Positions 8,627 to 57,773 of a DNA stretch of 64,000 nucleotides are shown piece by piece. Positions within the stretch are counted from its first letter, which is position 1. Each line of letters opens with the position of its first letter. A program made the translations under genes and the position numbers. The notes beneath the pieces were generated by a model. That model saw only the letters and a list, made by a program, of their open reading frames with translations. It ran no database searches and was not told the origin of the DNA. The DNA lies in NCBI GenBank assembly GCA_947172415.1, contig OX359197.1:5271673-5335672 (forward strand), read 5' to 3'. Source of the DNA: Chondrosia reniformis. Taxonomy: Eukaryota; Porifera; Demospongiae; Chondrillida; Chondrillidae.

Positions 8627-9074
8627 GACTGGCCACGTAAGCAGCTTTGAGAACGGTCAACGCCCTATTTCGAGGCTGTCACGTGTTTAGCGGAACATAA
8701 TAGAAACATTTTATTTGAATGAAGTTAGCACGAAAAGGGGATGACAGCGACGCAAGGTAAGGGGTAATCATACATAAAGTGACATATACAGCGCTAGTAT
8801 AGCTATACACAAATGGTTTCTTTCTTCTCACCATACGTAGTATTTGAAACATGCTGAAACTAAATTATTGCTGTTAGCTATTAGAGTAATATACATATAT
8901 GTATACACATTTATGCCTTAATACTTCCACTGTAAATATTATATAAATTCATCCGATAGAAAAGTTGTTAATTTTCTGAGCTCCTGAGCAGTATATTTCA
9001 CAGGATGGAGAATATATTAGTGTATTTCACTGCAGGGTAGCTATGTACATATTATAATTTCTGTAAGAATTGTT
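8627..9074. other. 5' flank of kinase-kelch copy B, no gene
   Basis: The first 130 bp (GGCCACGTAAGCAGC to the CATTTTATTTGAATGAAG block) recur at 2576-2690, 24854-25050 and 26615-26800. They probably hold the kinase promoter. No coding sequence is visible. Confidence 0.6.
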
Positions 9075-18440: not shown

Positions 18441-18499
18441 GACTGGCCACGTTAGCAGCTTTCCTGTCACGTGTTTAGCGGAACATAATATCGAAACAG

Positions 18500-18622
18500 G
18501 ATAAACTGGTTAATGAGCTTCGCGTAGCAGCGTGAAACAGAGGAAGACCGCGGACCGAAACGTTCTGAAATAATTCATCAATTGTTTCACGCTGCTACGC
18601 GAAGCTCATTAACCAGTTTATC
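18500..18622. mobile_element. Fold-back/MITE insertion with 40-bp perfect inverted repeats
   Basis: Left arm 18500-18539 and right arm 18583-18622 are exact reverse complements (GATAAACTGGTTAATGAGCT ... AGCTCATTAACCAGTTTATC), with a 43-bp spacer. The related flank at 8700 and 24930 lacks it, so it is an insertion. There is no coding capacity. Confidence 0.85.
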
Positions 18623-24853: not shown

Positions 24854-25095
24854 GACTGGCTACGTAGCTATGCAGCTTTGAGAACGGTCAACGCCCTATT
24901 TCGAGGCTGTCACGTGTTTAGCGTAACATTTAGAAATATTAATTTTTATTCGAATGAAGTTAGCACGAAAAAGGGATGACAGCGACACAAGGTAAGGGCT
25001 AATCATACAGAAAGTGACATATACAGCGCTAGTATAGCTACACAAATATAAATTGTAATTGAATCATGCAAATATTCAAGTATGGATGGGCCTGT
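24854..25095. other. 5' flank of kinase-kelch copy D
   Basis: Shares the conserved flank (GAACGGTCAACGCCCTATTT, TCACGTGTTTAGCG, ATTCGAATGAAGTTAGCACG) with the other kinase copies and with the orphan block at 26615. Confidence 0.6.
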
Positions 25096-33844: not shown

Positions 33845-36800
33845 ATGTTTCTATATTATCAAGAGCTAATTGTTCTAATTATAACAATATACAGGTGTAA
33901 CGGTACGTTTAAGTATATCGTGTATAATATGTAAATATGATTTTAGTTAATCACGATTCTCTGCTGCTCTGTCCAGCAGGCGATGTTGTTGTTCGACTGA
34001 GTAATGGAACGTATGATCGCGAAGGACGTGCTGAAGTCTATTTCAACAATACCTGGACCCCAGTATGTCAGTCTGGCTGGAGTTTGAAGGCAGCTAATTT
34101 TATTTGTAACAGGGCAGGACTCGGCGATGCGGTGGAAGCGCCTAATGGGGCGCCGTATGGCCCTGGAACCTCCGAACAGATGCAAGTAGCCATTACTTGT
34201 CAATCTGAAATTGGAGAATGTACTATTGACACGGGACAAAGCTGTGAACACGGAGCTAGTGCAGTGTGTGCCGGGTTTTGTAAGTATAATGTGTGTAGAT
34301 TACATTTATGCCATTCTATATGGGATTACGAATGTATTTTATTTTATAACCTATTTTAAAAAGGTCACACAATGTAAAAGTGAAGTGTTTTGCTCACTGC
34401 ATCTAGTTGACAAGATTGACAGAAAATGTGTAACTATTTTCAGCCTTTTCTTAAATTGCATACTTATAGCCAATTTGTTGATTAAGTCTTCATTTTACTC
34501 TTAACCATACAATTCAGTGCTGTTAAAGACACATATAATCTCCATCATTTAACAAGGTTCTATTGAAGACATAGCATATGCACTGTTTTCACTGTATAGA
34601 GATTGCGTCAGAATCTAAAATTCATGATGCATTTTAGGGCAAGGTAGATGTAGTTAGAGTTTGTTGTAACAATGGTAAAAATGAAGTACACACACTGTGG
34701 GTTTCTGTATTATCGTATATGTTTTTATGAGGACTTTATATTTATGTGAAAATGCCAATATTAAAACTTGCACTTGCCCCCATGCAGCACATGTTAACTA
34801 ATTTCTTATAATATACTAGTCTGAATGTCACATTAACAGATTTTTAAAGCAACTGTTTTCATTAATGAACCACATTGTGACATTTGACATGCAGTATACA
34901 CTATATTCTCATATTTCACTATATTCTCTACATATATATGTATACTCTATATGGTGTTGCATAATAGTGACGATATTTAATGAAACATATCATTATCTTT
35001 ATTTTTCCATATATGTACATGGCCTTGCTCCATTTCTATATAGCCTCTGCTGTTGGATTCACTCTACTTACAAATACCGACCATCCTGGACCCTTGCACA
35101 GTGGTATACCTCAAGTAGCACTTAGCCAAGGAATTGCCTTCTTCTGCAGCAATGGTGTCAACAGCATTTCCGCAGCTCTCATTTGTAGGTCTGCTGGTTT
35201 TACAGAAGTGAGGAACAAGCATTCCATAAATATCACTTCCTCAAACACATCCAATATTGACTTGTGGGTTAGTAACTTGGATTGCAACGGAAATGAGCAG
35301 AACCTCAAAGGTTGCATCCTTGAGCATGCCTCTGCTTGTCCCAATGATGGTGGGCTACTTCAGATTGAGTGCTCAGGGGTGGAGCCTAGTGTTCCTTCAC
35401 TGAGTGAGTAAATAGGTAGTATAGGTGCTTCCCCTTACAAATACAATCATTTTAGGAATACTGTGTGTTTACATATTTAAAAGCATTGATTGTTCCCAAT
35501 TAACTTAGAGCTGTAATTTTCATTCAATTTTCTGTAAGACAAATGTTGTCCATATATAGGGATGCATATGTCTCTCTATAATAACCAAGTAGATGTATGA
35601 TATATATAAGGTATATGTATTATGTAGCAATGTTTAGTTGAAATGTTACAGTTAACAGTGTGTGAATATAATAGGTTTATGATTGTGTATAAAGATGTGT
35701 TTCCTTATCCACGCATATGTGTGTGTGTGTCTTAGGAAAACATTAGAGAGTTTCCTTTTGTTAATGTGATTTGTATTATATTTCACGAGTTCCTTTAGAT
35801 ACCCGATAAGTGCAGTCATATTGCTAGTGTATATATAACCTTTATGTAACGTCGCGAGTAGTCATATTGCTAGTGTATATATAACCTTTATGTAACGTCG
35901 CGAGTAGTCAGGCACTGATTAGGCTGAGGGGTTATAGTTGCGAAGCTAAGGGGCGATTGATTTACTCTAAGTCAGTTGACTTATTAAAACCTCAATCAAC
36001 TTGTTGGAATCAAAGTTACAAAACTAATGGGTATTTATAGAAACTGGGTAGGAAATGATTACAACTTGTGGGTTGATGTGAAATAAGATGTGGGTTTACA
36101 TGATATAAATGTGGTTACATTGAAGGAAACCCAACAGATGAATAAAGTGGAACTCAAAACTGTGGAATGCTAATTAAATATATGACAGAACTGATTATGT
36201 ACTGATCTGCCGCTTCGCCTTCCCATCCAACCTCAGAGTGAAACGCTACATTTAATTATCACTTCCACTGGTTCTGCTTCCTCATCATTAATCTCCAAAC
36301 GTATAGTTGGTACCTTGTTTAATTCTAGAAATATTCCGGACCCCAAGCACTGTTTTATATAGGTTATATAAGGTGATATACCCCTTTGGTATATATTTTG
36401 ATATCTGTTAATCTATATATAGAATATCTTCAATACACTATATAATGTAGTTCATACATCTTGTACACATACCAGCATGTAAACGTACCTTTCCACATGT
36501 ACATGTACGTATGTGTCTCAGAGGACGCACTGGACATGTACCAGAAGCCCCTTTACCTCATTTGCCCATGCCAATGATTGAAATCAAGTGTCTGCATTAA
36601 AAAGCTTCACTGCACAATTTCTATGGCTTTGTTCATTTTGTGGTCATTTAAATAGATTTGGAGTTTGAAGATGTTCGTTTAAATGGTTCAGTGCCTAGGG
36701 AGGGTAGAGTGGAAGTGAAACGTAATGACCAGTGGTACCCAGTTTGTGATCACTTGTGGAGCGAAGTGAACAGCCAAATCTTCTGCAAGGGTATTGATCA

Positions 36801-38432
36801 GGGAACCCCCCTTGTTACATACCTTGGTTCAGTATATGGTAACCATGGAGACAGGTTGTCTCCACCTCTTCTTTGTCACAATAACATTTCAAGTTGTTTT
36901 GAACTGATACCTCCAACTAAGGAAGACTGCAGTACAGATCATGAAGTTGGACTTGTATGTAGTGGTCCTAACATTGGTGAGCTATATGCTGAAATACTTA
37001 TTATGATCATTGTGATAAAGATCTCTTTTTATTTATCATTATATATGTACCTTATATTTTTCACCGCATGTACAGTATATCCTTATTATATTTAGTCATC
37101 TAACTTGTCAACTAGTTAAGTATATGGTGGTTTAATTGTTGAGCTTGTTGTAGCGTTATGAAACAAGAGTTTAGTATATGTTATGTATTTTTGTCAATTG
37201 TATTCCCCATTATACAGAGTTGAGTCATGGTTTTGTCAGACTTGTGGGTGGTAACAGTCTGTACAGTGGAAGGTTAGAGATGTATTACAATGAACGATAT
37301 GTAACACTCAAGCAGTCATCCTGGAGTGTCACAGCTCAGAGCAATGCCAGAGTGGCGTGTCGTGCACTGGGGTTTAATAGAGTGCTCAATGTCAGCTACC
37401 CAGTACCTCATCAAAGTGGAAGAGATTGCGTGAAGGGTGCATTTACCTGTTCAGGAACTGAGAACAACATCACCAGTTGTGACAATGTGTTTGCCCAGAA
37501 TAGGCAATGTGAAGGGGATGATGTCGGTATAGTCTGTAGTGACCCCATGCCATCCTTAATGAGAACTACACCACCAACAAATACAACAACAAAATCCTCT
37601 GAGGATCCATCACGTAAGTACATGTACGTACATCTGTGACAAACATACCGTAAAACACAAAACCTTTTGTACGTGGTAGATATTTGCAGACACCATTACA
37701 TTGTTGAAAAATAGATTATGAAATTAAATGCATCCATGTGTGTGAAAGTTTTACAGTAATAATTTTGAGTTAAGTGCACTGCGTGAAATATTTTCCTGTG
37801 AATATTTCATCTGTATATGCTGTGTCTTCTGCAAAATTTATATGCAAAACATTTTGAGTTAACAGTATGTTCCTATATCTGTATAATATTACATTTGTAA
37901 GTAATGTATGTATATGTACGTACATCATAAAAATGGAGGTTTCTTATTTTAGGAATTTATGTAACATACGTATACAAAATTAATTGGGATATGAGAATGT
38001 GTGCATTTTAAAGAGGTTCTTTTGCTCCCTAATCCCTGCCCAGTAAATATATATACATGTAGTAGAAAGGTTCACTTCTAATATACAAAAGATAGTTTTA
38101 TTGAGAATCAACAGTGGATAGGATGTTTTGACCTGTAGAAATCATTAGCAATAATGAAACATATAATTGCTGATTCAGTAAGTGGTGCCAATGTTCAATA
38201 AAAAAAATCTTTTTTAATATAATAAACACAACCAAAATATACTCCTAATTATTATGTATGTCTCTTCTATTGTATAGTGTCAACCCCAGTCATTGCAGTG
38301 CTGACAATTCTAGGAGTTGTCTTTGTTGTTGCGGTTGTGGTTGGTATTATCATTGTCTGCTATGTAGCCTTCTCCTGGATGGGACAGCCACACAGAGGAT
38401 CGCATGGAGTAACATTCTCTAGTGAAAAATAA
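33845..38432 (+). CDS. Single-pass membrane receptor with four SRCR domains (6 exons, about 529 aa)
   Basis: Exons: 33845-33902, 33980-34279, 35044-35403, 36656-36976, 37218-37613, 38278-38432; every intron is phase 1 and the total is in frame. Exon 1 gives a hydrophobic leader (MFLYYQELIVLIITIY), a candidate signal peptide. Exons 2-5 each encode one scavenger-receptor cysteine-rich domain (for example GRAEVYFNNTWTPVC, GRVEVKRNDQWYPVC, GRLEMYYNE). The second is divergent. Exon 5 ends in a Thr-rich stalk. Exon 6 encodes one membrane helix (VIAVLTILGVVFVV) and a cytoplasmic tail of about 25 residues without a tyrosine signalling motif. SRCR receptors bind microbes or self ligands; sponges have expanded families. 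The leader exon is the least certain part. Confidence 0.85.
35815..35904. repeat. Perfect 45-bp tandem duplication
   Basis: Two copies of the unit starting AGTCATATTGCTAGTG, in intron 3 of the SRCR gene. It overlaps the left end of the LTR-like block at 35891. Confidence 0.9.
35891..36250. mobile_element. Candidate solo LTR
   Basis: A 360-bp block begins TGTAACG and ends GCTACA, flanked on both sides by TTTA. The TG...CA termini and 4-bp duplication fit a solo LTR, but no second copy or internal region is in the window. Confidence 0.3.
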
Positions 38433-39147: not shown

Positions 39148-39445
39148 ATGGGAGACTCGAAAGTTCAGTCTATATTACGCCAATGTCACAAAGTTCTAGT
39201 CGATAAGCTTAGAACCGAACACATCATTGACGACATGTTTCAGCAAGGGTTGATTTCTCAGGATTTATTGGTCCATTTGCCCGACGAAAAGTCTTCAAAA
39301 AAGACTAACAGGAAATTGTTGGAACATTTGCGGGATCACCTGGAATTTAAAGAATTGCCAGTTTTGTAGAATCCTTAAAAGAAGTGAAAAGGATTGTCAT
39401 ATACATAAAGTTTGTTTCAAGGAGTTACAAGATGCTATAGGCAAG
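39148..39445 (+). other. CARD exon with internal frameshift
   Basis: ATG GGA GAC opens a frame with the CARD pattern (ILRQCHKVLVDKL, DMFQQGLISQDLL, LLEHLRDHLEFKELP), then stops at TAG 39367. The +1 frame continues FCRILKRSEKDCHIH and KELQDAIGK to a phase-0 donor (AAG|GTATGT), which matches the next exon's phase-0 start ETPSSQQ. The whole exon therefore reads as coding if one small indel between about 39330 and 39366 is allowed. It is either a real lesion that uncouples the CARD, or a sequence error. Confidence 0.7.
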
Positions 39446-42400
39446 GTATGTATGTATATAAAAGTGTTTTGCGGGATGCAAGTGTACTACTTATACAATA
39501 TGTTATTAGAATATGTGATTGATGTGATTTTTGCAGTTTTGAGCTTTAAAGTTTACAGTTGTATAGTGAGCTTATCAAGCAAGAACACAAGTGCTTATAG
39601 ATTGTATGCTATAATTTAGATTGTGTAATAAGGTTATACTTGAATAGTAGAGGGTTGAGAGATGTTCTGAGGGGGGATCACCACCAATCTACCTTCACAA
39701 TAAAATGGCCAAAATTACTGTACATATGAAATGATGTTTGATTGAATTTCTTTATACACACTCCTTATTCTTCACAGGAAACTCCTTCTAGTCAGCAGCC
39801 TCTTGCTCCACCTAGTCCTTCTGTATCTGAGGGAGAATCTGTTCCTGATGTAGCTGATTACTTGCCTCATATAAATGAGGCTGAATCAGAGTTTGCCAAT
39901 CTGGCTGAAAAACTGATTAACTATATTCGAAAGATGCCTCGTCAGAAACAAAACCGTTTGATAGAATGTATCGAGTTAAAATTGGCTAGGAGGCGTGTAT
40001 CTTTTCCTACTGAAGTAGAAGCTTTTATTCGAAAGCTCAAAGACCATTGGGATTTTATAAACACTGACTTGTTAAGGTTTACTATGAAAAATTTTTGCAG
40101 AAAACTGCTAAAGGAGCTTGATCAGTATGAATCTAATTTGAGTGATCACATAGTAGAATTTGTTAAGATTTGCAAAACAGACCATATAAGTCCAAGAATG
40201 ACAGATCAAGCCACAGTTGCATTTCAGACTGATGACATGGCTGGTATGTTGGGGAAGATATTGAAACTTAAACATTTTCTCAAAAAGCGGTTGAATATAG
40301 AAGAAGCTGTCTTTGAAGGTATTAATTTTTCCAGTGTATTTATCTACTTCTCCTTCCCAAAAGAATACATTCAGAGCTTCAGTGTTCAGTTATTGTCAAA
40401 TGCTGCAACATTGAAGACATTTGGGATACTATCAGTCACTCTGATTGGTGTATTTCATGTTAACTTGGCAAATGGGAGTATTCAGTGGCTGAAGGAGAAT
40501 GTAAGTATGTCATCCCCACAATTAAAACTAGGTATTTATATTGAAAGTGCCACCTTTTCATTGTTGGATGAAGATTTAGTTTGCTGTTATTAGTTTGTAT
40601 GTTGATACATATGTAGCCATTTAAGTATTCAAGAAGTTGCTCACCTCTGGGTGATCCCTTCTTTACAAAGTCACTGGCTCCTTTGCAACTTGACCAGACT
40701 GATACAAGTACCAAAAAGTGGATGCAGATAATTGAAACATGTTCAGATCCATTAATTGCAATCACCTCACTTTATGAAACAACATTTCTTAGTATTGCTA
40801 AATCTTCCAGAGCACGTGGTAGGTTATAAAATGTACTAAGTATATGCTGTACTTTACTTAAAACTTTTTTACCTAAAATATATAGTATGTATCAGTAGCC
40901 AGTATAGACATATGTTGCGACATATGTTTAAATAGATGTTAAAGTGTATTATTTACTGTTTTAATTGTTTTCCATAAATACAGTAATTTTGGCATTATCA
41001 CTTTTTCAAATTTAATATACTTATACCAGCAAAATGCACAAAATCCAAAAACCACAAAAAATGTACCTGCAAATAATTGTCACTTTAAGGTATATGTATA
41101 TGTAGAATATGCATAAATTATTGTATTATCTTCGTTAATGTGAATAGGAGGTGGAGAGAGTGAAGCCACAGTCATGGCTGATCCCTTTGATAGCGTTGCT
41201 ATTAAGCAACAGTGGCAAAATTGCAGCCTCCTAGGGGATATCATAAGGAGCCTCCCTGCTGACAAAATGGAGGAATCTCTTCTCTATCTCCGCAGATATG
41301 AGCAATGTTTAGAGGTCTTCTTTAGCAGAGTTGATTGTCCTCTGAGGTCGGCCTCTCCTGCTTATCTACCACAAGTGGCACAGGAGTCAAAGCTTCCCAC
41401 AAGTAATCTGTCAATAACATGGAACAGCGGAGTGTCATTGTCACAGCTGCTAGAGAAACAGGTCCTCATATGCACACTCTTTAGTATACAGCCTGCAAGG
41501 ATTCAGTTTCTTCAAGCCTTTAATTTACAAAACACAACTATTCTTTGGAGAATACCAAATGAATATATTTCTAAAGTTTTACAGAATTGCTCTCTTAACT
41601 TTTGGATGCTGCTGGATGATGGAATTTCAGAAGTACAAGTTAATAATATTTTTAAGCTGTCACTAAAAGGTGAAGAAACAGTATGCCTGATTCGTGATGC
41701 ATTACTCTCCAACAAGGACCTACTTACTTGTACAAAAGTAAGCCATCAAATGTGCATAGCTAACATGTATACAGTTACTACATGTTTATACGTATGTATG
41801 TATATATTTTATGTATACTTTTTATTGTATGTAGTCTTTCAGCAGTGCATTTATTTCAACTATTAACTTCCCATTGAAGTTTAAATCAGTAAGTATGAAA
41901 TCAACAATTATTATCAGTCTGTTACACTTTCTGCCTACATATGTATACCCTACTGAAATTCCAATCAGTCCCTTTGGTCTAAATTTACACACACTATTAT
42001 ACGTGTATAGTCTCGCATAGCCATCCCGTTTTCCACCATTATACTGTCAGAAAATGGTCTGGGGACTAAGTACTGAAAAGCTGTTTGAAATGTCAGGCTT
42101 CCAGTCGACAGCCAAGAACTACCAAATATGGTAGCCATATTGCTAAGTACGCAGCACTGCTTCATGATGACATCACTAAGTGGAAGCTACGTAATTTGTA
42201 AACCATTTTATCACATTAAAATGGCAGAAAACGGCTATGTGAGACTAATAACGGCTATGCGAGTCTCAGACTAATATGTATACATATATCACTATAAATT
42301 GTTGCCTGTAATTTTGTACCTGATATAATGTCACCAGTAAATTACAATGATGATTCTTGGCAATATCAAAGGTATTTTTTTATAGAAAGTTATGATTTTA

Positions 42401-45400
42401 TCGCTTAAATAATCTCTCACTTTTCACTACCAATATACGGTATATTTATCATCTGTAAACAAATAATCTTCATGAGAATTTAACACCATGCACCATATAC
42501 TGTACAGTACACATGGGTGAGACTGCTATTTGTTTTATAATGTTTTATGGCAGAAATATAAGGCTAAGGGAGGACACCCTCTCATTATGCCAGTCCTGAC
42601 ACTCAGGAGAGGTCATGCATGCAGGTATATAGAAAGGATCACTGCTGACAGTGAGTATAAGTATAACCCAGCTAGTAAACTTTGCTCTGTCAGTGTTTAA
42701 TTTTGTTTCTAGCTACAGGAAGGTACCTTGGTGACATTGCAAAAGGTCCAGTTCTTGATCATGGAGTAAGGGACTTAATTATTTGGTTTTCTGTGTGTTG
42801 TGATTCATGTAGTTGCATAACTTTAAAAGGATATTTCTTCAATAAACTTTTACCAAGCATGATAAACTAAATATGTAAAACTGAGTAAATTTACAACAAA
42901 TTTGCACATGATTAAGTACAGTATTACAGTATACTCTACTTGCATTAATTATAGAAAAGAGATGTTGAATTAATACCTGCTCGTCGCAAGAGAGACTTTT
43001 TGGATCTCCGATCTCCTGAATCAGGTTTTGTTGAGCCTTTTGGCCCACCCTCTTCAACAGTATACAGAAGGTCTAAACATGATAAAGTGAAAGAGGCGGT
43101 CCCAGACTCTATTAAAGCAATTCCTATTGGTCCAGATTTGGACTACAAGTCTCCAAATGCTGAAGAGGCGGTCCCATACTCTATTAAAGCAATTCCTATT
43201 GGTCCAGATTTGGACTATGAATTTCCAAATGCTGAAGAGGCGGTCCCAGACTCTATTAAAGCAATTCCTATTGGTCCAGATTTGGACTATGAATTTCCAA
43301 ATGCTGAAGAGGCGGTCCCATACTCTATTAAAGCAATTCCTATTGGTCCAGATTTGGACTATGAATTTCCAAATGCTGAAGAGGCGGTCCCAGACTCTAT
43401 TAAAGCAATTCCTATTGGTCCAGATTTGGACTATGAATTTCCAAATGCTAAAGAAGATACCTCCTTTATGATCGGTTTGTGAGACTCAATCCAATCAGAT
43501 TTAAAACCACTTTGAAGTTTAAAGGTATTTGTATATTTAATATGTAGACACAAAAAACTTCTTCGTTACATGTCAAGAATGCTATGAAAGGTCATCTTTG
43601 TCCAGTTTGTGGAATCGTCCTTCTGTTTGTACCAGGAGAAATCACAGAAAGGAAATTGTAAGTTAATTTGATTTAAGTGTTTACTTTTACTATTATTGTA
43701 TCTCTAATTATTTTTGTAGATATTAAAATTTAAAAGGACTGGTTTTTGCATATCCGTATGTCCAAAACCACCAATCGGATTAATCTATTCACTCTGTCCT
43801 TTTTTCCCACAATGCCAAGATGAAGATTCTTGTCATTATCCCCACACAGATTATGAGTGGAAATACTGGGCTGGTATGTACAGTACTACCTATCTTTATG
43901 TTAACAATTCAATTCTACGTCCTGTCACAAAACAAATTTCTGTTTTTGGTCATTCTGATGCATAGATATGGAATTAATGTATGATATCTAGAATTTTAAA
44001 CAGTATAATTAAACAACAATTTCCAATAATTCTGCTATAGATTCTCTAGTGGAGGAGTTTGAAGAGAAAAAGTTTTGCTATACTTGTTACTGGGATAATC
44101 TGTCTCAGTTGTGCCAGAAAAAATGTCTGCATGGAACACATCAGCTTACCACTATAGTGTATTTTGAGAAGGACTTGAAAAAGTGCTTCATTATTCGTAT
44201 TCCATTAACTTCAATGTCAGCATTGAAGCCAGTACATTCACCTGGATCTTGCTATGACATTAGAATCTGTGATTCACCTCATTCTGAAGTTGAGTCTAAA
44301 ATATGGGAAGTTTGGATTAAAAGTGGAATCCTTATTAAGCAACAAAATCCTGTAAGTATTATTGAATTTATCACTCTAGATATGCTATATAATTAACAGC
44401 TGACGGCACCCCTTATATGATTGCTACTATATATTCTACTTTTTTGAATTACCCTAGAGCCCTTAGAGACGAACTAATGTTTTAGATCATGTATATAATC
44501 TGTAATCTTTATTAATGAGATAAAAATATATACTTACATTATCTTGCTTGATTGTGTATATACGTACTTATAACTAAAGTAACTGTCAATAGCTCATACA
44601 AACAATAACCAGCAAATATGAATTAAGATTTGGGCTACTTCAAAGGAAGTTCACTTTGGTGACTTACACATCAACAATATATATGTACATAAGGAATACA
44701 AAGCTGTAATATGCTGTAGTCTCTATATTATTAAGTTTGTGCTGGAAATTTTGGTGACAAATTTATTTCGGCAGATTGGCAGTTTTGAGAGTAATCCACC
44801 AATATGTCAAACTGAACCATACATACATACATATAGAACAACTGTCTTATCAGTAAAATTCACCAAATACCATAATTTGAGTAATCTGCCAAGTATTCTT
44901 CCTGCCAAAAATTTCTGGCTATACAGTGTATGTACGTACGTTTAAGTACAGTAATTATGGTTTTGTTCAAATTTTATTACATAAGATTGATACAGTTGTG
45001 GTTCTAGGAATTTATTTTAATGTGTTAATGTTCTGGTCCACATTGAATGGCTCCCATATAGAATGAACTTCTGAGGTCTGCCATTGATGTTTTTGATGGA
45101 AAGACTAAATTGGGACTTTCCCCGGTAAGCTTTTGGTTCATGTGCCTAATTCTTGAATAATACATGTACGTATGTTGTACATACGTATAAGATCCTTTTT
45201 AACATATATATTGTATACAAAAACAATTTATCATCAGCAAAACCTTCAACCTGTATAATCTATTGTTTTAAGCATAACATTGGGGAATGAAATCATTATG
45301 GGAATATACGTACGTACGTATATTGTGATCAGAAAACTTGTAATAGAATAAGAATTTCTTCTAACTGCGTCGAACTTATCTTTGGAAAGGGTCATCTTTT

Positions 45401-48400
45401 GACTGGGGGTCGAAATGTTTGGCAGAAAGAAGAATCAAGAAAACTCCATCTCTAGACGCTCCCAAAGTCGAAAGATGACCCTTTCCAAAGATCAGAAAAC
45501 TTGTAATTTATATTATTTTCCTTTATCTTGTGTAAATGTATAGTGGCATTTACTTCAAAAATTATGTATACATTAATAAATGTGCTTTATGTGTGTTTTT
45601 ATAAGTTCATATTCAAACTCTATTGTTTCCTCTTCATAGTGAAAATAATACTGTATAGCGGGAAAATTTGGCGGGGAATATATTTGGCGAAATGCCCAAT
45701 TTTAGCATTTGGTGAAGAATTAAATTTGGCAAGCTTCAAACTACTCGCCAAATTGCCAAATTTTAGTCCTCGCAAAATTTTCCCACTATACGGTAGATTG
45801 CTTAGTTAATCATTAATTTTCTCAATTGGTTCCATGCACCCTTTGATAGAGAAGGTGTTTATAGTGACTAACAAAGCAATGTTTACGATGGTCTTACTCA
45901 CAGAAATGAATTTTCTGGTTCAACACAGAATCACCACTAATATACATATTATAATACCTGCATGCTGTACACCTTTGCTTTGGAGTAATATCATAACCCT
46001 AAATGAATTGAAATTTCCTCTGTATTCACACAGGTTGTTGAACCTAATATTGAATTGCAGTTTTTAAATTTGCAAAATTATAAGAAGAAATTTTTGCATC
46101 TGATTGGTCTAGAAGAAGAGGAACATAAACGCAGACTCGAAAAGTAAGATATTAATAGATTGTAATCAATAATTAGTATTTTAGAAGTTTCCTAATCAGC
46201 TTTAGTCCATATATACCATATGATTAATCTATAAATCTATAATACCATTTTCCTATGGATATGATTGACATGCATAAGAGATTTAGTAAACATAAAAATA
46301 GACTGTTTCCTATAGATTAAATACTTACAGTTTTATATTATAAAAATGCTATGCTAACTTGGACCTTTGTTATACGTAAATGCTTTCCCAGCAAAGGCTT
46401 CATGGTGTGTGTATGGTGTGTGTATGTTTTTAATCAGCTTATGATATGGTATAATATCCAAGAGTTATGAAGTAAATCTATACAGTACGTACAATATTCA
46501 GTGAAAGGTTCTTTTTTGAAAAGCATTGATATTAAGAGTTTGAAAGTAGACACAATTTTGATTTACGTATGTAGGTCTTTGTTTCTCTGTAAAAGATTAA
46601 GTATAAATTAGGGTTTTACTAAATAAGAAAAGGTGTCATGTTCTCATCAGTGAGTCCAAGAATCTTGAGTCTTGTCCTCTTAATGTAGTTGTTGTGCTTG
46701 ATATGATCACCTTAAAACAGTATAATTAGGTACTAGGCATGTACTCCATAAATATACCAAGTTGTAGCTTGTGATATCAAATGACAATTTCTTTATGCTT
46801 TAGACACGACGGACGTTATGAATGTTATTTTTTTGCCAACAATGAAGAAGATAGAAAATCAAAGATTTATAAAGACAACAGAGTGTATTGTTTAGGTTAC
46901 ATAAGGATGGATCAAACAGCTGGTGATTTTGTACGCCAGGCTGCATCATCCGTTTCCATTTACTCTGAAGTCCAATCAGTTAGCATTATTGGTAAAATAG
47001 TATGGGATATTTTAAATCATGGACCCAAAGGAGAAGCAGATGTAACTGTAAGATTTTTAAAGTTACCATATGGGATACCCAGGGAACAGTTGCTTAAGTT
47101 AAATGTTCACTTTCGATTGAAGGATTCCTATTTCAGACACCTTAATATGGCAGTCCAAATGCTTAAACCCGCTGCTCTTCAAAAGCTAGTACTAGAAAAG
47201 GATGATTTTCAGTCAGTTATTCCCACAGACTTAAAATATCAATTTCCCAAACATTTTAAACTAGATTCCTTTTCACAAAGACCAGCTTTTTGTAAGATCA
47301 TGTCTTCTTCTCCAAGATTACCCTTTCTTGTAACAGGTCCATTTGGCACTGGCAAGACACGGCTACTAGCTTCTACTGCTTATTATGTTTTGGAGAACAT
47401 GCAAGCTTCTCGGGTTTTGATTATTACTCACCATAAACAAACAGCCTCGGATTATGTAAATAAGTACTTTGCAAACAATCCAAATTGTAATACAGCCAAT
47501 ACAATACGTTTGGTAAGATATAAAAAAGCTCATTCAAACAAACCTGACTTTGAAAAGTCTGTGGAGGACATAAGGCTCGAACCAGATCAGTTAAAACCCT
47601 GTCACTTGATGATTACCACATTTGGTACTTTCCTAGCATTACTGGATGAAACATATAGCCCTCATGACCTAATGTTAATGTTACAGCCGGGCTATTTCTC
47701 CCACATCCTGATTGATGAAGGTGCACAAGCACGAGAACCTGAAACTGTTGCAGCTTTCTTATTGGCAGACACTAATACAAAAATTGTTATTGCCGGAGAC
47801 AATATGCAAGTTAGTCTTAAATCATTTGTTCAAGAAGTGTTACTTCCAAATTTTAGGCAGTAGTAATGTGTCATCTTCTCCTTATATGTTACACAGGTTG
47901 GCCCAGGAACTGTTGTGCTGGGTTCTGAACCAAGAAGAGAAGGGCTAGCTGATTCTCTATTAGTTCGACTCAGTAAACTTTATGATTTTCACAAGTGGGA
48001 TGCATACAAATCAGATTTGTTAACTAACTTTCGGTCTCATTATGGAATTATGCAGCTTCCTTCCAAAATCTTCTATGACAATACTCTTGTGGTAAGTCTT
48101 AATATAAATATACCCATTATTTATCTTATGCCATAAATGATACCATATTTTATGTCCTGAAATGTTTATTCATTTAGGCTAAATCTGTTGCTAAGCTTCA
48201 CCCATCCCTCAAGCAACCAGTGCATTTTATAGTAACTTCTATTCATGAATGTCCACTGTGTTCATGGCATTCGGAGGCTATCTACAAAGAAGAAACATGG
48301 AAGGAGGTACAAGTAATCTGGAATGAAGTGAATAAATGCCTTAAACAATGGCCTACTGAGGAGTGGGGAAAGAAGAATCCTGAATTATTATGCGTTGTGT

Positions 48401-51400
48401 TGCCAGGATATTTACAGGTAACCCTGAGTTTTTAAGGTTTTGGCCATGCATTATGTATTACTGCACCTGTACATAGGCAAAGTATTTACAGCACATGCAT
48501 TAATTTTTCACTTTAGCAAAGAATGTGGAAGTGTCTTGTCAAAAGCAATACTGATCTATCATCAGTTCATGTTTTCACTTGTTTTAATATTCAAGGTATG
48601 TGCATGTATGCTATACTTGTAATATAACATTATGCCATTTACTTTACTTATTTTATTTACTTAGTATCTTAAAGTTGCTATTTTTAATGGATTAGGTGGA
48701 TTTAACAGGCAATCCCAAAATTGTTAAAAATTGTACTGGGACCTTACATGCCTATTAACCACACATGCCTATAAAAATAAATTCTAACAGTTATAATTTC
48801 ATGTATTATTGTGTCTCCATTGAAACTTTTGTCCAATACTTCCTGGTCTGTGTCCCTCTGTCCGAGCTGTGTGTCTCCTCCATCCATAAAAATGAAAAAT
48901 CGCTCAGAATTAGCACCAGTTAAAAATAGTAATCTTTAGGGTATATAGTTGAATTTACTAGACTGTAATTAAAACATACTATTGGTTGTTCAGTGCATGT
49001 ACGTATGTATGTGTTTAAGGCAATCTCATAAAGTATTAGTAATATAAGCATTTTTTACCAGAGGGTCGTTTTCTGTGTATATAGGAAGAGAATACAAGGC
49101 CTTGTTCATTTGCACAAGTGAAGGTGTTGCTGACAAGAATTTCCAACCACTTGATTTAACCAAGAGCATGTGTGATGCTGCTGTATTTAATACAGTTATA
49201 ACTAGAGCAGCTTCTCTTATTGTTGCAGTGGGAAATCCTTTCAGACTGATTAGAATTGAGCAGGAAATCAGAAATTCACAAGTTAAAGAATTTCATGATA
49301 GGATTGCTTCTGTTACGGATTCTAGTAAGTACCAAAAGGAAATTCTTACTTCAGAAATGGATTGCCTGAAGTCTCGGAAATTTTGCTGGATCACTTACTT
49401 GCATTACTGCTGGACCATTAAATCTTTGCAGATTGTCCCTCAAATAAGTGAGCAACTTCCAGCTGAAACAGTAGGACAGGTAACATATATTTTAGTGAAG
49501 CAATTACTAAGCTATGCTAGGGTAGAGTTTGAAACCGATTTGGTAGATCTACCAGCTGGTATTAATGAAGATATCATTCTCAGAGGGTACAATGAAACAT
49601 TAAACAAAAGAGCAGAAGCTCTAAAGTTAGGTATTGTGGGAGATGATCGAGGATGGGTGACTGAGCAACTTAAGGAAACTAATGCAGCCAAATCTTCAAA
49701 AGGATTAACTGAGAATGTGAGTAGAACTGGTGTGCTATGCTGGCTAAAACAGCAGTCACCTTATAGGTGTCTAGCTTACCCTATTGAAAAGAAGGGAGGT
49801 AAGAGTCAGATTTCCGGACCTTATGTTATTAAGGATGTTGCTAACCGAAATGGAGCCTTTGATGGAGCTATTGTAAGAGTTTCAGAAGTTCCCGAATCAA
49901 GGGGTAGCCATTATGTTTCATACATTGAGAAAAATAATTTTAACTTACTTTTGATATGCAAAGCCGACAATAAAGATTGTGATAGTTTGATGCCTATTGA
50001 TGACAGAGTGCCAAGAATTGTTAATTTACCACACATAAAAAATTTCTACCTAGGAAAGGATTCAGAGGAAGGGCATCTTGTGCTTGCTAAACAGGAGATA
50101 GCATGTTTTGACTTAAAATCGCTTGGTAAATCAATGTTGCCAAAAATTACTAATACCATACCTCTTGAATTTTCTAAGGATCTCTTGTTCATAGTCAAAC
50201 CTCTTTATTGGCCAAAATCTGAAACATTTCCAGTGGGTGCAGTGATTGCTTTTTTTCCAAGGAGTGTTTCACTTTATCAAGCCCAAATATTCTTGAATGC
50301 TAGGTATATGGTTCCCAGGAAAGAGGTTTCACTATCTGAGCCATCATTCCACTTAAAAGTGAGGCAACCTTCAGATGCTGAGTGTCATTACAAAGAAGGT
50401 ATTGCAATTGTTGCAGACAGTGGATATTCCACTTGTGCATTTTCTCTATCAGAAGAAGGGGGCAAATATATTGTTTGCATTCACATACCCAATATAGGTC
50501 GAACTGTGGAAACCTTGAAGGAGTTTCAAAGTAAGAATGATGGCTTTGATGGCTTAGAAGGTGATGAAGATTTAGGTCATTTTGGGCAATGGGCTAGTTT
50601 CACAGTGGATACCTCAGATCAAACCAATTATTTTCCTGTTTTGCCACAAAGTGTTGTTAATGAGCTTTCATATACTACTGGCAATCAGAAAAGTATAACT
50701 TTAAGGGTTTCCTTTTCAAAATCATTTGATTTGGAGAAAATTGGTAGTTTTTCTTTGGACTCTGTAAAATGTAAATATAGATATACACTGAAAGAAATTG
50801 AAAAACTGTTAAGTAGTGAATCTAGCAAATGCACACCTTTGAAGTTACAGATTCTTTATAAAATAGTTAATCAGCTTAAGAGGAGTGAATTATTGAGTCA
50901 AGTGTCTATTAAATCTCAGAAGTATCCTTGTGCATCCTTACTAGTTGAGGGTCTGCTCTCTCTAGCTAACAATAAGGCTGCTGAGAAAATAGCTTTTGGC
51001 CTTCCAAGGCATACACTTCTCAAAATTGCAAGGTTTTCATCGGATAGTGATCTAGATAACATTTCCAAAGTGTTTTCAGGCGTTTTTCCCTTTTCAATGT
51101 TTCCAGATCTTTTAGAAAGTAGAAAAGGCAGCCACCGAAGAATATACTCTCACTCAATGAATAACTTGTTAAATATCCTTGGAGCTGGTATGGATAAGGC
51201 CACTCTGGATAAGGCAAGAGAAGAAGCCATTGATTTAATGAAATGTCCACCAGACAAAATGTCAATGCTGGATGCTCTAAAAGAAATCGCATGTGAAGAG
51301 TTTGTAACAATGAAGATTGCAAATAAAGTGCGTAATTTGGACACTCTTCTTGATACTCTTAAAATCAACTTGAATGCATTAAACTCTTTGCATCAGACTG

Positions 51401-54400
51401 CCATGACTTCATTTACTAATCCATTTGACTCTTTGTTTGATATAATAGTGCAAATTGCACTCACAAAAGTTATTGATGGCAGTATTACCAATGGTGCCCT
51501 GCCTTATGGATCCACATCTCTAAGTAAATTTTGCCACATGTGCACAATGGCTAGTCAGCAGTCTCTTCAGTATAGAAGGGAACTGTCCTTGGTTGGTCTT
51601 GCTCTAGAAGCTCAGGAGTCTTCAATTATGTGTTATGGAATGATTTCCTTAATTACAAATGGATCTGAAAATATAATTCACATATACTGTAGCAACCCTG
51701 ACTTCCATAATTTGCCAAGAAATAGATTTAATGTGTTGGAAATTGGACGCATCAAAAGTAGGGACGACATAGCTTACTTTTACCATACTTTTAAAGAAAC
51801 ATCACTTGTTGGTCCTTGTCAGGTCATTCAAAATGGAAACTTTTCAATCATTAAAGATGATGGTAAACACTCACAATCATCTCTGTCACTATTTGCTCCT
51901 GGCACTGATGGAAGTTTGCGTAAACAGCAGTGGTCAATTAAGAATTCTAAATGCATGTTAGATGTCCCTGTTGAAACCTTAGAAAAAGTAGAATTTTTTG
52001 CTAAGGATTGCAATCCAAACACAGCTTCTGCTTTGCTGACTGAAATTTCAAAGCTTGATTTAAAGGAATATCGTCCATCAATCAGCCAAATTTTTACTGA
52101 TTATGCACACAAATTCTCAGAAAATTCAAAAGTGGTTACTCAGGGTGAGAATTATCATCCTCAAGAATTTCCAAGTGCTCCATTGACAATTAGTCATTAT
52201 AAAACTGCTTTAGATGTCTGCCACCCAATCAGAATTTGGATTACCTGTGACTCCACTGGGTATGTAGCTACCCCAGCAATACAGCTTATAGAGTTGCATC
52301 CGGATCTAAGACTCTGTCTGCAACATCAAACAAACCCTGAAGCTTGTTTTACTCCAGGAGTTGAATTTTCCCAACCCAAAGATGTATGGTCTAGTATAGA
52401 AGAATACACAGAGTTTTGGAAAGATATTGTTTTAGCTGAGGCTGCAGCAAGTAGTATTAGAAACTATGGTAATTCTGATGACAACAAAATTCTTTGTATT
52501 TCCAATTTTATGCTCAAATTTGATGGTTTCAAAATTCCAAGAACATGCATTGGGGAAGAAGTCTATGAACCCACAGGAAATATAACTGCTACACTCTCAA
52601 AAGATTTTACCTTCAACAAATCTGAATTCTTTCAATTTGGACAGGGATCACTTGTATGTGTGCGATATGAAATTAAAGTTTCTAAGGCCGACTTGCCAGA
52701 AGCCATGTACAAGAAATTTTGTTCCAATTGTCATTTTGATGGTTATGCAAGAGCTGTTTTTCATATGGTTGTTAAATCTGTTAGAAATGCAGACTCACTT
52801 GAAGAATTAGAATATGATGATGAAATAGTTAGAGAGCCTTCAGCTTTACTGGTAAGCAACAGTATAAGAGCATTAAAATTAAGATTGGTATTACAACAAT
52901 ATAAGAGCATTAAAATTAAGATTGGTATTGCATTTTACGCATGGAGATGGTCATATTTGCTTATTATGAAACCTATTCATTTTATAAATGTTATGTAAGT
53001 GCGTACCTGTATAACTTAGCTAGACGTATGGATGATAGTACTTGCATAGACTCAATATACTATGTACTGTAGTATAGGAGAGTCTATGGTAGAGTGACTA
53101 AAAATAGGTGGTTAATGGAAAAATAGCAAAATTTAAGCTAACCATACACATTAGTTCTACAGTATGTATCATCCATAATAATTTTGCAAAACCAGGGCCC
53201 CAGGGTCGATCACAGTTAACAATTACCATATATCGGGAATTGAATGCGTGTGTCCAAAGAATGCGAATTGCGAGTTTTGACTGTATGCGCAATCTTTTGT
53301 TGATTTGATACCTCAGTAATTTTGTATACACGTCTGGTACACCTAAGCTTTATCTCACATTCTTTTAACCATAATGTTTATTTAAACCCGTAATTCCCAA
53401 TCTTTTACTTTCGCATTCCTACGTATCCCAATATACGGTAAATGCAAAGTCCTGTGATCCCTGGTTTTACAGTAGGTCTAGTCAAATGAGCCGGCAACAG
53501 GGTTAGGGTTAGGCTAACCCTAGGTTATTCACCAAAACATATACATTTATCTTGCTGATTGTATAATATCATCAATTTAATGTTTCTAATATGGATGACC
53601 CATCATCATTTTACCATATTTGCCAAAGCAACGAATGCTATATTTTATATGGTAAACATGCATTGTTACATCATTTAGTATATGTATTTTTCTCCCAAGG
53701 TTTCATTCATAGTCCGAGGTGAGAATGGTGCTCGCATTTCTCCACTGATGAAGGAGCTTTTAAGCTCTAAACGAAGAAAATATACATGTGAATTGCAATT
53801 GATTCAAGTTAACCTACCAACTAAGTAAGTCTGTTTATATGCATAATACTCTCTAAAGTGACTATCACCTTGTGTGTCATTTTCTTTTTGTAGGAGAGTT
53901 TACAACTCTTTACAGAAGTTGACAAAGCATCAATCATCACTCTCCAAAAGTATTGCCCTAGGGAATATTGAAAATTTGAAGAAAGGTAACAGAACAGTAG
54001 TTTGCATTCTACTGTCTTATCATATCCCAATTAAGAATCATCGATGAATTATCTTATAAATACTGTATAGGAAAAACTACAGTTATTATACAGTTAGGCT
54101 TCTTTTCTTCCCTTCCACTGGGACTGACACCTGTTTCTAGGAATTCCACCCTTCATCGGTGTCCCTGCGAGACTTTTCCTTCTTCTTGATTTTTCGTTGT
54201 CCTCTCTCCTGAGGAGTGATGCTATTGATATATATGAATGACAAGCTTAAGCTCTTGTTATCTAAAGTTCATGATTGCACTGTAACAGTGGAATGAACAG
54301 TTATTCATAATTAATATGCTATGTATACTATGTCCACAGAAACAGGTTTTGGTGAATCTGGAGATGTAGAGACTTTGAAGCTAATGGATTCACCTTACAT

Positions 54401-57400
54401 TCTCAATGATAATCAAAATAAAGCCTTAAAACTTAGTGTTAAGAACAAGTTCCAATTAATACAGGGACCTCCAGGTTAGCCTATCATCTTATCTATATAA
54501 CAATTATAGCACTGCACATATGTAAATGTGCACACTGGTATCCAAAGCTGCTAGTCTCAGTTAGCTTGTCTTTGCAGACTGTTGCTTATCTTTGTCTAAG
54601 GAGAATACATTAAAAGGGACTGGTTGTTTTATCTCAGAATGAAATTGCATAATTTTTGCAGACCTCCTGATTTTGAGGGACTGTAAATTCAGTTACTCTG
54701 GGTACAGAAAATGGGAATATGTAATAAACCAACCACAGATTTGACCTTACAGATGGCCACTTAATGAGTGATAATTTTCCTGTTTGGGAGCTAGATACAT
54801 ATATACGTATATGTGATTGGTGGTAGAGTATTATTTGTTAGAGAAGATGTGGTGTGAGAGTGTTACCTGGCTGTTATAAGAGAAATGATACTAATAGTTT
54901 CTTGTTCTTTTACTTAATATCCATTTGAAAAGGTACTGGAAAGACCATTACAGGTGTTCACATAGCAAATATCTTTGCCAGGTGCAACAGGACTGAGATA
55001 AAACAATCTACATTTGAATTTCAGAGACGTAAGACAATAGGAAAAAGGAGTACATCAAAGGAGTGTAGACCTTGTGTCCTCTATTGCGCTCCCTCAAATC
55101 ATGCAGTGGATACAGCAGCAGGTTAATATATCTTCATTCTTGGATTTACTGCAATACTAATACCTTATTTTGTACATACATATGTGTATATACTGTATGT
55201 ATATATAGGGTCACTGTGGACAGTGTTGTTCTCATATACAGTCACTTCAATATCTCAAAAATGTATTTGATAGCAAATCATTATAGTCTCCTTAAAATCT
55301 TCTAATACTGTAGGAATTAGCAATAATCTTGTAATTTTTAGTTAATCAATCTTATGTCTTTTTGCTAGAAATGCTTTTGGATTTCGTGAAAGATTTAAAG
55401 CTACTTCGAATCTACAGTAGAGGTATAGAGAGGAAAGACTTCCCTGGTCCTGCAGCCTACAAGCACATATTTGAAGATGTTGTTTCAAGAACGAAACCAA
55501 AATGGAGTTTAAGGGAGATTTCCCTTCATCAATTGATCCGCAGGTCTACTAGATATGCATACAAATTGAAACAATTGGAAGATGAATTTAAGAAATTGGC
55601 TAAATTAGAGCGAATTCCATCAGCATCTGAAAGGTTTGAATACTATGACCTCGTCTTAAGAGCAGAGGCAGAGTACTTCAAGTCTAATGCCTTTGATATT
55701 GTACTTTGTACTTGTAATGAAGTTGCTGGTGAACGATTTAGAAGATATTTTTGTCCCAGCCAGTGTATTATCGATGAGGCTGCCAGATGTACTGAGCCAG
55801 AGACAATGGCACCTATCAGTTTATCTGAACATGTAGTGCTTCTTGGTGACCACATGCAGTTGGGCCCAATTGTAATGAGTAAGAAGGTGGAAGATATCCT
55901 TAAAATTTCACTATTTGAACGTTACAGCAGATTACTAAGAAAGACAAAGGAACAGAAAGACATGTTTTTTCAGTTGAAAACTCAGTTTCGCATGGTATGT
56001 TATAAATTAAAAATGGTTCCTCTTATACATATACTTGTATAATTATACTCTAAACACTGCTGAATGTTTGTGCGTGTGTTTTTATAGTTGGAGCCTCTTT
56101 GCCGATTTCCTTCAAGAGCTTTCTATGGCAACAAGCTTGAGACGGATAAAAGTCGCAAAGAAAAGCTGGGGAAAAGTGGTAAATAGTGGTTTCACACTTA
56201 AACAGCTATAAATATCTATATATGCAATACATTTTTACACATATGCAGTATATAGCTATGAAATTTACATTGTTGTCAGTAAAGTATGACATCAATAACT
56301 ATCCTTTATTGCAGCAATGGTGTTTTGTAACATTGATGGAGCTTGTCATGAAGCAGATAAGTCCTTCAGGAATGACAGGGAAGCTGACTTCATTGTGAGT
56401 AATTTTGTGTTATTTACATGCGTGGTTTAATCCTCAGTTATACTTGGAAGACATAAATAACAACTACGTATATGTAAACTGTAATCTTAACTTGGTTATA
56501 ATGTCAGTTTTCTTTTTAGATAAGTCTGCTAGAAAACTTTGCTAAGCCCCTGACACACAAGACAATAGGAATTTTAACATTCTATACTGCACAATTGGAC
56601 TTAATACAGTCAAAGCTCAATAAGAGAGAAGGGATGCCAAAATGTTCAGTCAAAACTGTGGATTCTAGTTTAGGTATAGTTTCAATATGTGGTCTCTATT
56701 TTTATATCAGCTATATGTGCTAACACTAGCAGTCTCATTTACAAGGGCCAGAAGTACATATATAATAGCAAAAATATTCTAGGCAACCATGTTGAACAAT
56801 ATTCACATTGTGACGTTTGATTGATTTTGTTGGCCATAGGCAATCAATTCATAAAGAATAATGGGTTTAGATATACAGTATGTACTGTAAGTCAGTTATC
56901 CAAAGTTAAATTATCCAAATACATTGATTAACCAAACAATCCCAAAATCACCATGGGCACCAAAGTCTTAATTAACAAATAATAAATTATCCATTTTAAA
57001 TGTATACACTGTAAAAAAGCTTTAACAAAAATCTCTTTTAGATTTTAATTGAAACTTCAGTTTTCTGTACACCCATTGGTACTGATGTCTTCGGATAACT
57101 GACTTTCTACATACTCCTAAACAATTCTCTGGATTTGGCATAATTATTAGTCTAACAGCCAAGTCACCACAAATACCTACCCCTATTTACACACACCAGC
57201 CTATACAATACTCAACATAACCAGGGATTATGAGGCTGCAAAGTAACACTAAGTAATAATGCTGGATTGTAAGAGCTTTGCACCATTATTTTTGCTGTAT
57301 ACATTTACGTTTGAAGCTTCATCTAGTAAATATATGTATAAGGTCTTTCCTATATTGCTTTCACTGTTTAACTCAAATGTGTATCAAAATTTTAATTTTA

Positions 57401-57773
57401 ATTGTCTTTGGATGCAGGTACAGAATATGACTATGTAATTGTTTCCACGGTGAGATCATCACCTCAAAGTATTGAAAAAGTAACAGTTGATCGGAAATGG
57501 AGGAAAGCAAACCTAGGAATTCTAGATGATGAAAAGCACATGTGTGTTGCTCTTACCAGATGTAAAGACCGCCTATTCTTACTAGGTAATGCTTAAGTCA
57601 ACTCCTAAACTCTAAGCATCATATATGTTAAACTTATAAATATAATCTTAAGCTTATGCTTGCTATTAATGTTTTCTATTATAACAATCTATACTGTTTT
57701 CTGACATAATTATAAATCACCCTAAATGCTGTATATAGGTGATAAAGAGCTTCTTTGTAAGAATAGGAAGTGA
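39148..57773 (+). CDS. HELZ2: CARD-containing HELZ2-like dual helicase (28 exons, about 3450 aa)
   Basis: Exons: 39148-39445, 39778-40500, 40617-40818, 41148-41737, 42554-42650, 42713-42765, 42955-43474, 43548-43657, 43720-43873, 44041-44351, 44775-44927, 45062-45124, 46034-46143, 46804-47809, 47897-48091, 48178-48417, 48517-48595, 49085-52851, 53700-53824, 53894-53985, 54340-54474, 54933-55121, 55369-55994, 56088-56178, 56315-56394, 56520-56673, 57418-57585, 57739-57773. Phases agree except for a frameshift inside exon 1. Order: CARD; helical region; 24-residue repeats; CCCH finger (C-x5-C-x5-C-x3-H, exon 9); SF1 helicase 1 (GPFGTGKT, IDEGAQ, AGDNMQ, NFRSHYG, VITRA); degenerate RNB; SF1 helicase 2 (GPPG|TGKT, IDEAAR, LGDHMQ, TQFRM, CVALTRCKDR). 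CCCH-helicase-RNB-helicase is HELZ2, interferon-induced in vertebrates. Both helicases look competent. Confidence 0.85.
39778..40500 (+). other. Exon 2: helical module of a type seen beside sponge death domains
   Basis: 241 codons of the large gene. A Ser/Pro-rich linker leads into an amphipathic helical region with DHWDFINTDLL, then FIYFSFPKEYI and SIQWLKEN near the end. The order (a W-D/N-F-x-N-x-x-LL helix, then an F-x-F-P strand, then a W-L end) resembles a module I associate with death-fold proteins of sponges and cnidarians. That association is from memory and unverified. Confidence 0.4.
43093..43452 (+). repeat. Five in-frame 72-bp (24-residue) coding repeats
   Basis: Inside exon 7 of the large gene. 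The unit runs EAVPDSIKAIPIGPDLDYEF then PNAE, repeated five times with almost no nucleotide divergence. Units alternate PDS, PYS, PDS, PYS, PDS (GAC or TAC at the same codon), so the array grew as a 144-bp dimer. Unit 1 ends YKSPNA; the others end YEFPNA. Confidence 0.95.
45378..45492. mobile_element. Fold-back element in intron 12 of the large gene
   Basis: Arms ATCTTTGGAAAGGGTCATCT (from 45378) and its complement ending at 45492 pair over about 27 bp with one mismatch, around a 60-bp spacer. The sequence GATCAGAAAACTTGTAAT occurs at about 45328 and again at 45490, flanking the element at a distance. Confidence 0.75.
49085..52851 (+). other. Giant exon 18: end of helicase 1, degenerate RNB, spacer
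   Basis: A single 3767-nt exon, against 53-1006 nt for the rest. It finishes helicase 1 (REYKALFICTSEG, NTVITRAASLIVAVGN). The RNB module is recognised by its surroundings: PVGAVIAFFP, KYIVCIHIPNIG where active proteins read GVHIAD, VLPQSVVNELSY where others read MLPxxLSxxLCSL, then ITLRVSF. The segment that should hold the metal-binding D-x-D-D-A is GYSTCAF at about 50420, with no acidic residue. An in-frame extension past the donor (52852-52998) is intron. Confidence 0.75.
52859..52933. repeat. Tandem duplication of about 37 bp at the start of intron 18
   Basis: TATAAGAGCATTAAAATTAA followed by GATTGGTATT is present twice directly after the exon 18 donor. Confidence 0.85.
53505..53526. repeat. 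Short telomere-like palindrome
   Basis: AGGGTTAGGGTTAGG runs into CTAACCCTAG in intron 18. It is an inverted pair of TTAGGG-like units, too short to mean much alone. Confidence 0.6.

Follow-up and report, generated by a model that had tools for sequence, protein, structure and literature searches.

The window analyzed here is a 64,000-nucleotide stretch of the genome of the demosponge Chondrosia reniformis (GenBank assembly GCA_947172415.1, contig OX359197.1), which corresponds to C9:5271673-5335672 in the contig numbering that we use for the 15 contigs and 117,379,552 bases scanned. On its plus strand, the window contains a gene of 26 exons (39148-57773; the CARD exon and exons e2 to e25, including e4b) that is predicted to encode, in this order, a CARD, two helical/TRADD-N-like modules, repeats, zinc-finger-like patterns, an SF1 helicase, an RNB-like domain and a second SF1 helicase (Table 1). 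The initial annotation of this gene, made from the sequence alone, proposed it as an undescribed innate-immune RNA sensor or effector built on a HELZ2 scaffold. We find that the predicted domain order largely holds, that a paralog has the same order and that the RNB-like domain has lost residues predicted to be necessary for nuclease activity.

Table 1. Features of the window gene, its C2 paralog and the neighboring genes (window positions unless a contig is given)
Feature	Position	Strand	Basis or remark
CARD exon	39148-39445	+	Donor GTATGT at 39446
Exon e2, first helical + TRADD-N-like module	39778-40500	+	Pfam NCOA6_TRADD-N below cut-off; genome copies
Exon e3, linker preceding second module	40617-40818	+	Phase fit; similar C2-paralog exon
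Exon e4, second helical + TRADD-N-like module	41148-41737	+	Likeness to C2-paralog module
Exon e6, five 24-residue repeats	42955-43474	+	Repeat tract 43091-43454, 72 bp x 5.1
Exons e7-e9, zinc-finger-like region	43548-44351	+	Cys/His patterns in translation; aligned C2-paralog blocks
Exons e10 to start of e15, SF1 helicase 1	46034-49300	+	Pfam AAA_11; motif strings
Exon e15, helicase 1 end + RNB-like domain	49085-52851	+	Pfam RNB below cut-off; family profile
Exons e16-e25, SF1 helicase 2	53700-57773	+	Pfam AAA_11 + AAA_12; stop codon 57771-57773
C2-paralog CARD	C2:7615448-7615753	same as rest of C2 gene	Open frame; Pfam 21.2 bits
SRCR receptor-like gene	36652-38432	+	Two SRCR domains by Pfam; ends just upstream of CARD exon
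Protein-kinase-like open reading frames	2162-2605 (partial), 7694-8656, 17526-18509, 23912-24859	-	By eye
Kelch-like open reading frames	5405-6457, 15769-16890, 22495-23598	-	By eye

Exons e2 to e25 (39778-57773; 25 exons with e4b) are separated by 24 introns, all of which have GT-AG borders and agree in phase, and the joined exons give a single stop-free frame of 3275 residues. Splice sites were picked by eye, and the small exons at 41835-41888 and 42694-42765 are uncertain. The initial annotation counted 28 exons, two more than we do, and had the exons keeping phase throughout, which is correct for e2 to e25 but not within the first exon, where frame 1 is interrupted as described below. Of the parts that it proposed, the repeats, the two SF1 helicases and the RNB-like domain were recovered in that order by Pfam, a family profile and the repeat count. 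An acceptor-like TTTTATGTAG lies immediately 5' of the ATG of the CARD exon and suggests an upstream exon of the 5' untranslated region.

Both helicase cores retain helicase motifs, including the Walker motif. Helicase 1 matches Pfam AAA_11 (6.9e-13) and contains the strings GPFGTGKT, LIDEGAQ, GDNMQ, NIQGREY and ITRAASL; helicase 2 matches AAA_11 (3.5e-21) and AAA_12 (4.8e-12) and contains GPPGTGKT, IIDEAAR, GDHMQ, TQFRM, TVDSSLGTEYD and LTRCKDR. The RNB-like domain in e15 falls just below the Pfam cut-off (2.5e-6; 27.4 bits against 29.3), and a PDB search with this exon alone returned no RNB chain and just a chance-level histone match. However, a seven-sequence RNB family profile reached DIS3L2 at 2.9e-36, and it is this profile, rather than the single exon, that bears out the RNB assignment.

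A genome search with the RNB exon gave 27 matches on C9, C2, C5, C10, C6, C3 and C13, and a search with helicase 1 gave 13, in both cases including the query itself. The closest HELZ2-like relative lies on C2 (39% over the RNB exon and 47% over helicase 1). This paralog has, on one strand and in the same order, a CARD, a module, an e3-like exon, an e4-like module, a zinc-finger block, helicase 1 and RNB. Exon e3 matches its counterpart with a blastp E value of 6e-8 in a two-sequence comparison, the e4 module resembles its counterpart (34%, E 6.7e-22) and, judged by eye, its modules can be spliced in the same phases as the modules of the window gene. Because the C2 paralog repeats this order and its CARD is unbroken, the CARD-helicase fusion is unlikely to be an artefact of exon assignment. 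Among 15 HELZ2-like loci (13 from the helicase 1 search and two C5 loci from the RNB search), a CARD and a module lie within 30 kb at two, both times in the same order and on the same strand; the CARD list for this count was typed by hand and omits many C2 rows far from HELZ2-like loci. Altogether, these data support two loci in this genome at which a CARD is joined to a HELZ2-type dual-helicase scaffold.

In human HELZ2, D1346, D1354 and D1355 are described as conserved Asp residues on which exoribonuclease activity is predicted to depend (PMC9839780). In an alignment of ten RNB motif rows (C9, C2, five from C5, two from C10 and one from C6), the pattern TID(P/H)......DDALSL is kept with the same spacing in three, i.e., the two C10 rows and the C6 row. 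In the other seven, the Asp pair is lost, with TC, SC, NC or NY in its place and several residues missing; the window gene has TC. These seven copies group in a single branch with a support of 100/100, and both CARD-bearing genes are inside it. Because the Asp pair is lost, the CARD-bearing branch is predicted to consist of pseudo-nucleases, favoring a sensor or scaffold. The RNB domain of the window gene is probably inactive, and we class the gene as a HELZ2-like pseudo-nuclease rather than an active HELZ2. Moreover, since both Walker motifs are retained while the Asp pair is gone, a sensor or scaffold fits better than a nuclease effector, and the "effector" of the initial annotation is weakened insofar as it meant RNA degradation. 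Two stretches on C3 stand apart from the alignment: a HELZ2-like copy at C3:1434801-1437400 (L062) is without most of the RNB region, and a second stretch (L063) is too short for its RNB state to be judged.

The first exon scores below the Pfam cut-off for CARD (PF00619; 18.1 bits, E 0.0027, cut-off 23.9), and a single-sequence PDB search with it matched a designed protein only. A 12-sequence profile of the window CARD and its in-genome relatives, in contrast, found the caspase-9 CARD as its best PDB match (2.1e-4). The same profile weakly matched the CARDs of Apaf-1, BCL10, CED-3, MDA5 and NLRC4 (E 0.06-0.36; MDA5 0.17), and two unrelated PDB chains, a designed protein (0.01) and a viral nucleoprotein (0.029), scored in between. 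The nearest CARD relative in the genome, at C2:7428263, is 49% identical and has an open frame. Thus, the exon counts as a CARD by its family profile even though its single-sequence Pfam match is sub-threshold, and the CARD proposed in the initial annotation stands in this qualified form. A chance open reading frame is ruled out by the family profile, the 49% identical relative and the C2 paralog. A large expansion of CARDs lies on C2, where a 3-Mb part of the chromosome (about 0.6-3.6 Mb) has dozens of matches.

The two N-terminal modules are 24% identical to each other, and each was read by eye as helical in its first part and as strand-helix-strand in its second. Compared directly with Pfam NCOA6_TRADD-N, the e2 module scores 15.5 bits (E 0.015), below the cut-off of 22.5. 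The possible likeness of the modules to TRADD-N had escaped the initial annotation, which spoke of a helical module. It has 12 further copies, full or partial, in the genome, and the e4 module also resembles copies at C2:9752980 and C7:5580180, each of which lies behind a CARD. Because a CARD is present no more than 3 kb upstream in 8 of the 36 module loci, CARD plus module appears to be a recurrent unit in this genome. In the zinc-finger-like region, the e8 translation holds C-x5-C-x5-C-x3-H, and a pattern search found Cys/His clusters in e7 and e9 as well. These patterns fit zinc fingers, but none was matched by Pfam.

Several lines of evidence suggest that the N terminus of the HELZ2-like family is exchangeable. 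Constraining the CARDs of the C9 and C2 genes to be sisters cost 25.6 log-likelihood units (approximately unbiased [AU] test, p-AU 4.5e-4; 12 rows, taken from no fewer than 147 CARD matches), and the same constraint on their first modules cost 64.2 units (p-AU 1.4e-5; 11 rows from the 36 module loci). The pair tested was chosen by gene, yet after its low identity (17%) was already known. The CARD and first module of the two genes thus appear to derive from different sub-families, and a single ancestral CARD fusion left unchanged in both genes is disfavored by these tests. The second modules of the C9 and C2 genes, in contrast, cluster together, if with modest support (84/70). Because the CARDs and first modules are not sisters and the second module looks shared, the N-terminal cassette was probably either swapped or gained twice; one gain followed by a swap and two gains are equally compatible with the data because the C9 and C2 genes group in the helicase/RNB tree with a support of just 77/73. 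The HELZ2-like copy L061 (C5:8034001-8042000, minus strand) has a protein kinase instead of a CARD (PK_Tyr_Ser-Thr, 3.1e-24) that, in the one copy read, joins the next two exons in phase. Kinase matches with an E value of 1e-20 or better lie upstream in three of the five C5 copies (138 of 227 candidates scored). Both the differing CARD/module cassettes and the C5 kinase make the N terminus look exchangeable. For the proposal of the initial annotation that sponges may have built a CARD-helicase sensor on the HELZ2 scaffold independently, the different sub-families of CARD and first module in the two genes are an unexpected point in favor.

The SRCR receptor-like gene upstream of the CARD exon is separate from the helicase gene, with its stop codon at 38432. 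By eye, its last exon looks membrane-spanning, and further SRCR-like open reading frames begin at about 33928. A relevance of this neighbor to the CARD-helicase gene was considered and dropped, as nothing was found for it. On the minus strand, window positions 2162-24859 hold a tandem array of similar genes in which a protein-kinase-like open reading frame is paired with a Kelch-like one.

We lean, by a modest degree, toward an RNA-sensor mechanism, in which a HELZ2-like dual SF1 helicase has had its N terminus rebuilt as a death-fold signaling platform and its RNB domain has decayed to a pseudo-nuclease. Binding and remodeling of foreign or aberrant RNA would fall to the zinc-finger region, the inactive RNB channel and both ATP-dependent helicase cores. 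When the protein assembles on such RNA, the CARDs would be gathered and would nucleate a homotypic CARD/death-fold complex, leading to a caspase-type or NF-kB-type response. Overall, the protein would work like a RIG-I-like receptor on an SF1/HELZ2 body. Besides the sequence data, we count in favor of this reading the known joining of death-fold/TRADD-N units to RNA helicases (PMC8195603), the reduction of LINE-1 RNA by human HELZ2 and the effect of its Walker A mutants (PMC9839780), and the altered expression of two HELZ2-annotated genes in the sponge Dysidea avara exposed to a symbiont consortium (PMC11229196). RNA binding, CARD assembly and immune output are here predictions from the domain architecture.

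Some observations weigh against this mechanism, and part of them speak for an alternative that we consider unlikely, if still a serious contender, namely that the working protein lacks a CARD and is a HELZ2-like helicase whose start lies at e2 or further downstream, the CARD exon being part of a small gene of its own or decaying. First, frame 1 of the CARD exon, read from the ATG, halts at a TAG at 39367-39369; helices 5 and 6 are read in the next frame, through to the donor at 39446, and only this second frame phases with e2. Compared with C2:7428263, two bases are missing between helices 4 and 5, and the remainder aligns up to the donor. An intron was rejected as the cause of the break, as the sequence aligned to the relative crosses it with the 2-base gap, and a sequencing error is unlikely because the primary assembly has a quality value (QV) of 69.8 (PMC12181767). 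Second, 13 of the 15 HELZ2-like loci have neither a CARD nor a module within 30 kb in the compiled lists, in which a CARD near one of these 13 could be overlooked since one of the underlying CARD searches scored 150 of 232 candidates. Third, the CARD and TRADD-N matches fall below the Pfam cut-off. The genome scan with Pfam yielded 25 CARD matches, and these include neither the window CARD nor the C2-paralog CARD, the latter being likewise under the cut-off at 21.2 bits. The genome-wide scan for NCOA6_TRADD-N had a single match, that of e2 (16.3 bits, E 0.48), and none from the other module copies, and a seven-sequence module profile weakly matched the second DED of viral FLIP (E 0.035). The TRADD-N and DED labels are therefore weak leads, not proofs; they agree with the published sponge layout of death-fold, TRADD-N and variable part (PMC8195603). 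A CARD-less protein is, however, disfavored by the unbroken CARD in the same place of the C2 paralog, with splice sites that are phase compatible by eye, and by the donor at the end of the CARD exon. Moreover, the break looks recent because both CARD halves are still recognizable. Given the 2-base loss and the high QV, the window copy may be CARD deficient in the assembled haplotype, with the C2 gene showing the unbroken design. With its CARD frame-broken there, the window copy might be able to signal on the other haplotype alone, or it might function as a relative of the C2 gene that lacks a CARD.

CARDs act as signaling adaptors and the Asp pair is absent from the entire branch with both CARD-bearing genes, which makes it improbable that the protein is a regulated RNA-decay or restriction effector whose helicases clear RNA of proteins and bring in a nuclease while the CARD serves only to localize the complex. 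In favor of such an effector, human HELZ2 reduces LINE-1 RNA, its effect on retrotransposition is gone in Walker A mutants, and a less than twofold effect of a mutation, which we take to be that of an RNase-dead HELZ2, would mean that a dead RNB costs little (PMC9839780).

Returning to the sensor, its history can tentatively be drawn further, although we place less than even confidence in the full scenario: in this sponge, a HELZ2 scaffold would have turned from an RNA-degrading enzyme into a family of signaling receptors through a single loss of the nuclease in a shared ancestor. It would then have received exchangeable cassettes (CARD plus TRADD-N-like modules of two origins in the C9 and C2 genes, and a protein kinase on C5) and, as an SF1 helicase system, would have arrived on its own at the CARD-helicase logic of RIG-I-like receptors. 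These receptors are the standard example of a CARD joined to an RNA helicase. If the scenario is true, a second route on an SF1/HELZ2 body without nuclease residues would imply that this combination evolved more than once, HELZ2-like proteins would join the sponge immune repertoire, and a single genome would offer a testable history of nuclease loss and cassette swapping.

Fusions of this general kind have precedents. Kaur et al. (2021; PMC8195603) describe invertebrate proteins in which one or more death-fold domains are followed by a TRADD-N-like domain and a variable C-terminal part, count 357 TRADD-N proteins in the sponge Amphimedon and report Mov10, DDX60 and RLR-like helicases that are joined to TRADD-N/death-fold domains in cnidarians and brachiopods. 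The window gene shares this order, with a TRADD-N match below the Pfam cut-off, and differs in its C-terminal part, which is HELZ2-like with an RNB-like domain. The terms "RNB" and "HELZ2" do not occur in the main text of that article; such an architecture may be present in its source data. We found no paper on HELZ2 with CARD in sponges, or on HELZ2 with dsRNA in cnidaria, in the literature searched. Thus, "undescribed" applies to the HELZ2 combination but not to fusions of death-fold, TRADD-N and RNA helicase as such, and what appears to be new is the HELZ2 combination and its repeated assembly. In the sponge Dysidea avara, two HELZ2-annotated genes, for which no domains other than the helicase are described there, had lower expression at 5 h with a symbiont consortium than with seawater microbes (PMC11229196). 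A 2026 survey of immune domains in D. avara lists 39 CARD genes, and "HELZ" is absent from its main text (PMC12909245).

The closest known systems are HELZ2 and the RIG-I-like receptors. In human HELZ2, as in the window gene, two helicase domains flank an RNB domain (PMC9839780); in the window gene, these are SF1 (UPF1-like) cores by Pfam AAA_11/AAA_12 and an RNB domain by family profile. The window gene differs from HELZ2 by its CARD, its two extra N-terminal modules and the loss of the Asp pair where the human protein has D1346, D1354 and D1355 (PMC9839780). Both the window gene and RIG-I-like receptors (RIG-I and MDA5) place CARDs before an RNA helicase, and the CARD profile weakly matches that of MDA5. 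Vertebrate HELZ2 is interferon-induced and carries N-terminal zinc fingers; it is not known to have a CARD, our own comparison having used sponge sequences. RIG-I-like receptors consist of CARDs, an SF2 helicase and an RNA-binding C-terminal domain. The window gene has two SF1 helicases and a pseudo-RNB instead, with both helicases best matching the SF1-type AAA_11/AAA_12, and falls outside the RIG-I-like receptor family while sharing its arrangement of CARD before RNA helicase.

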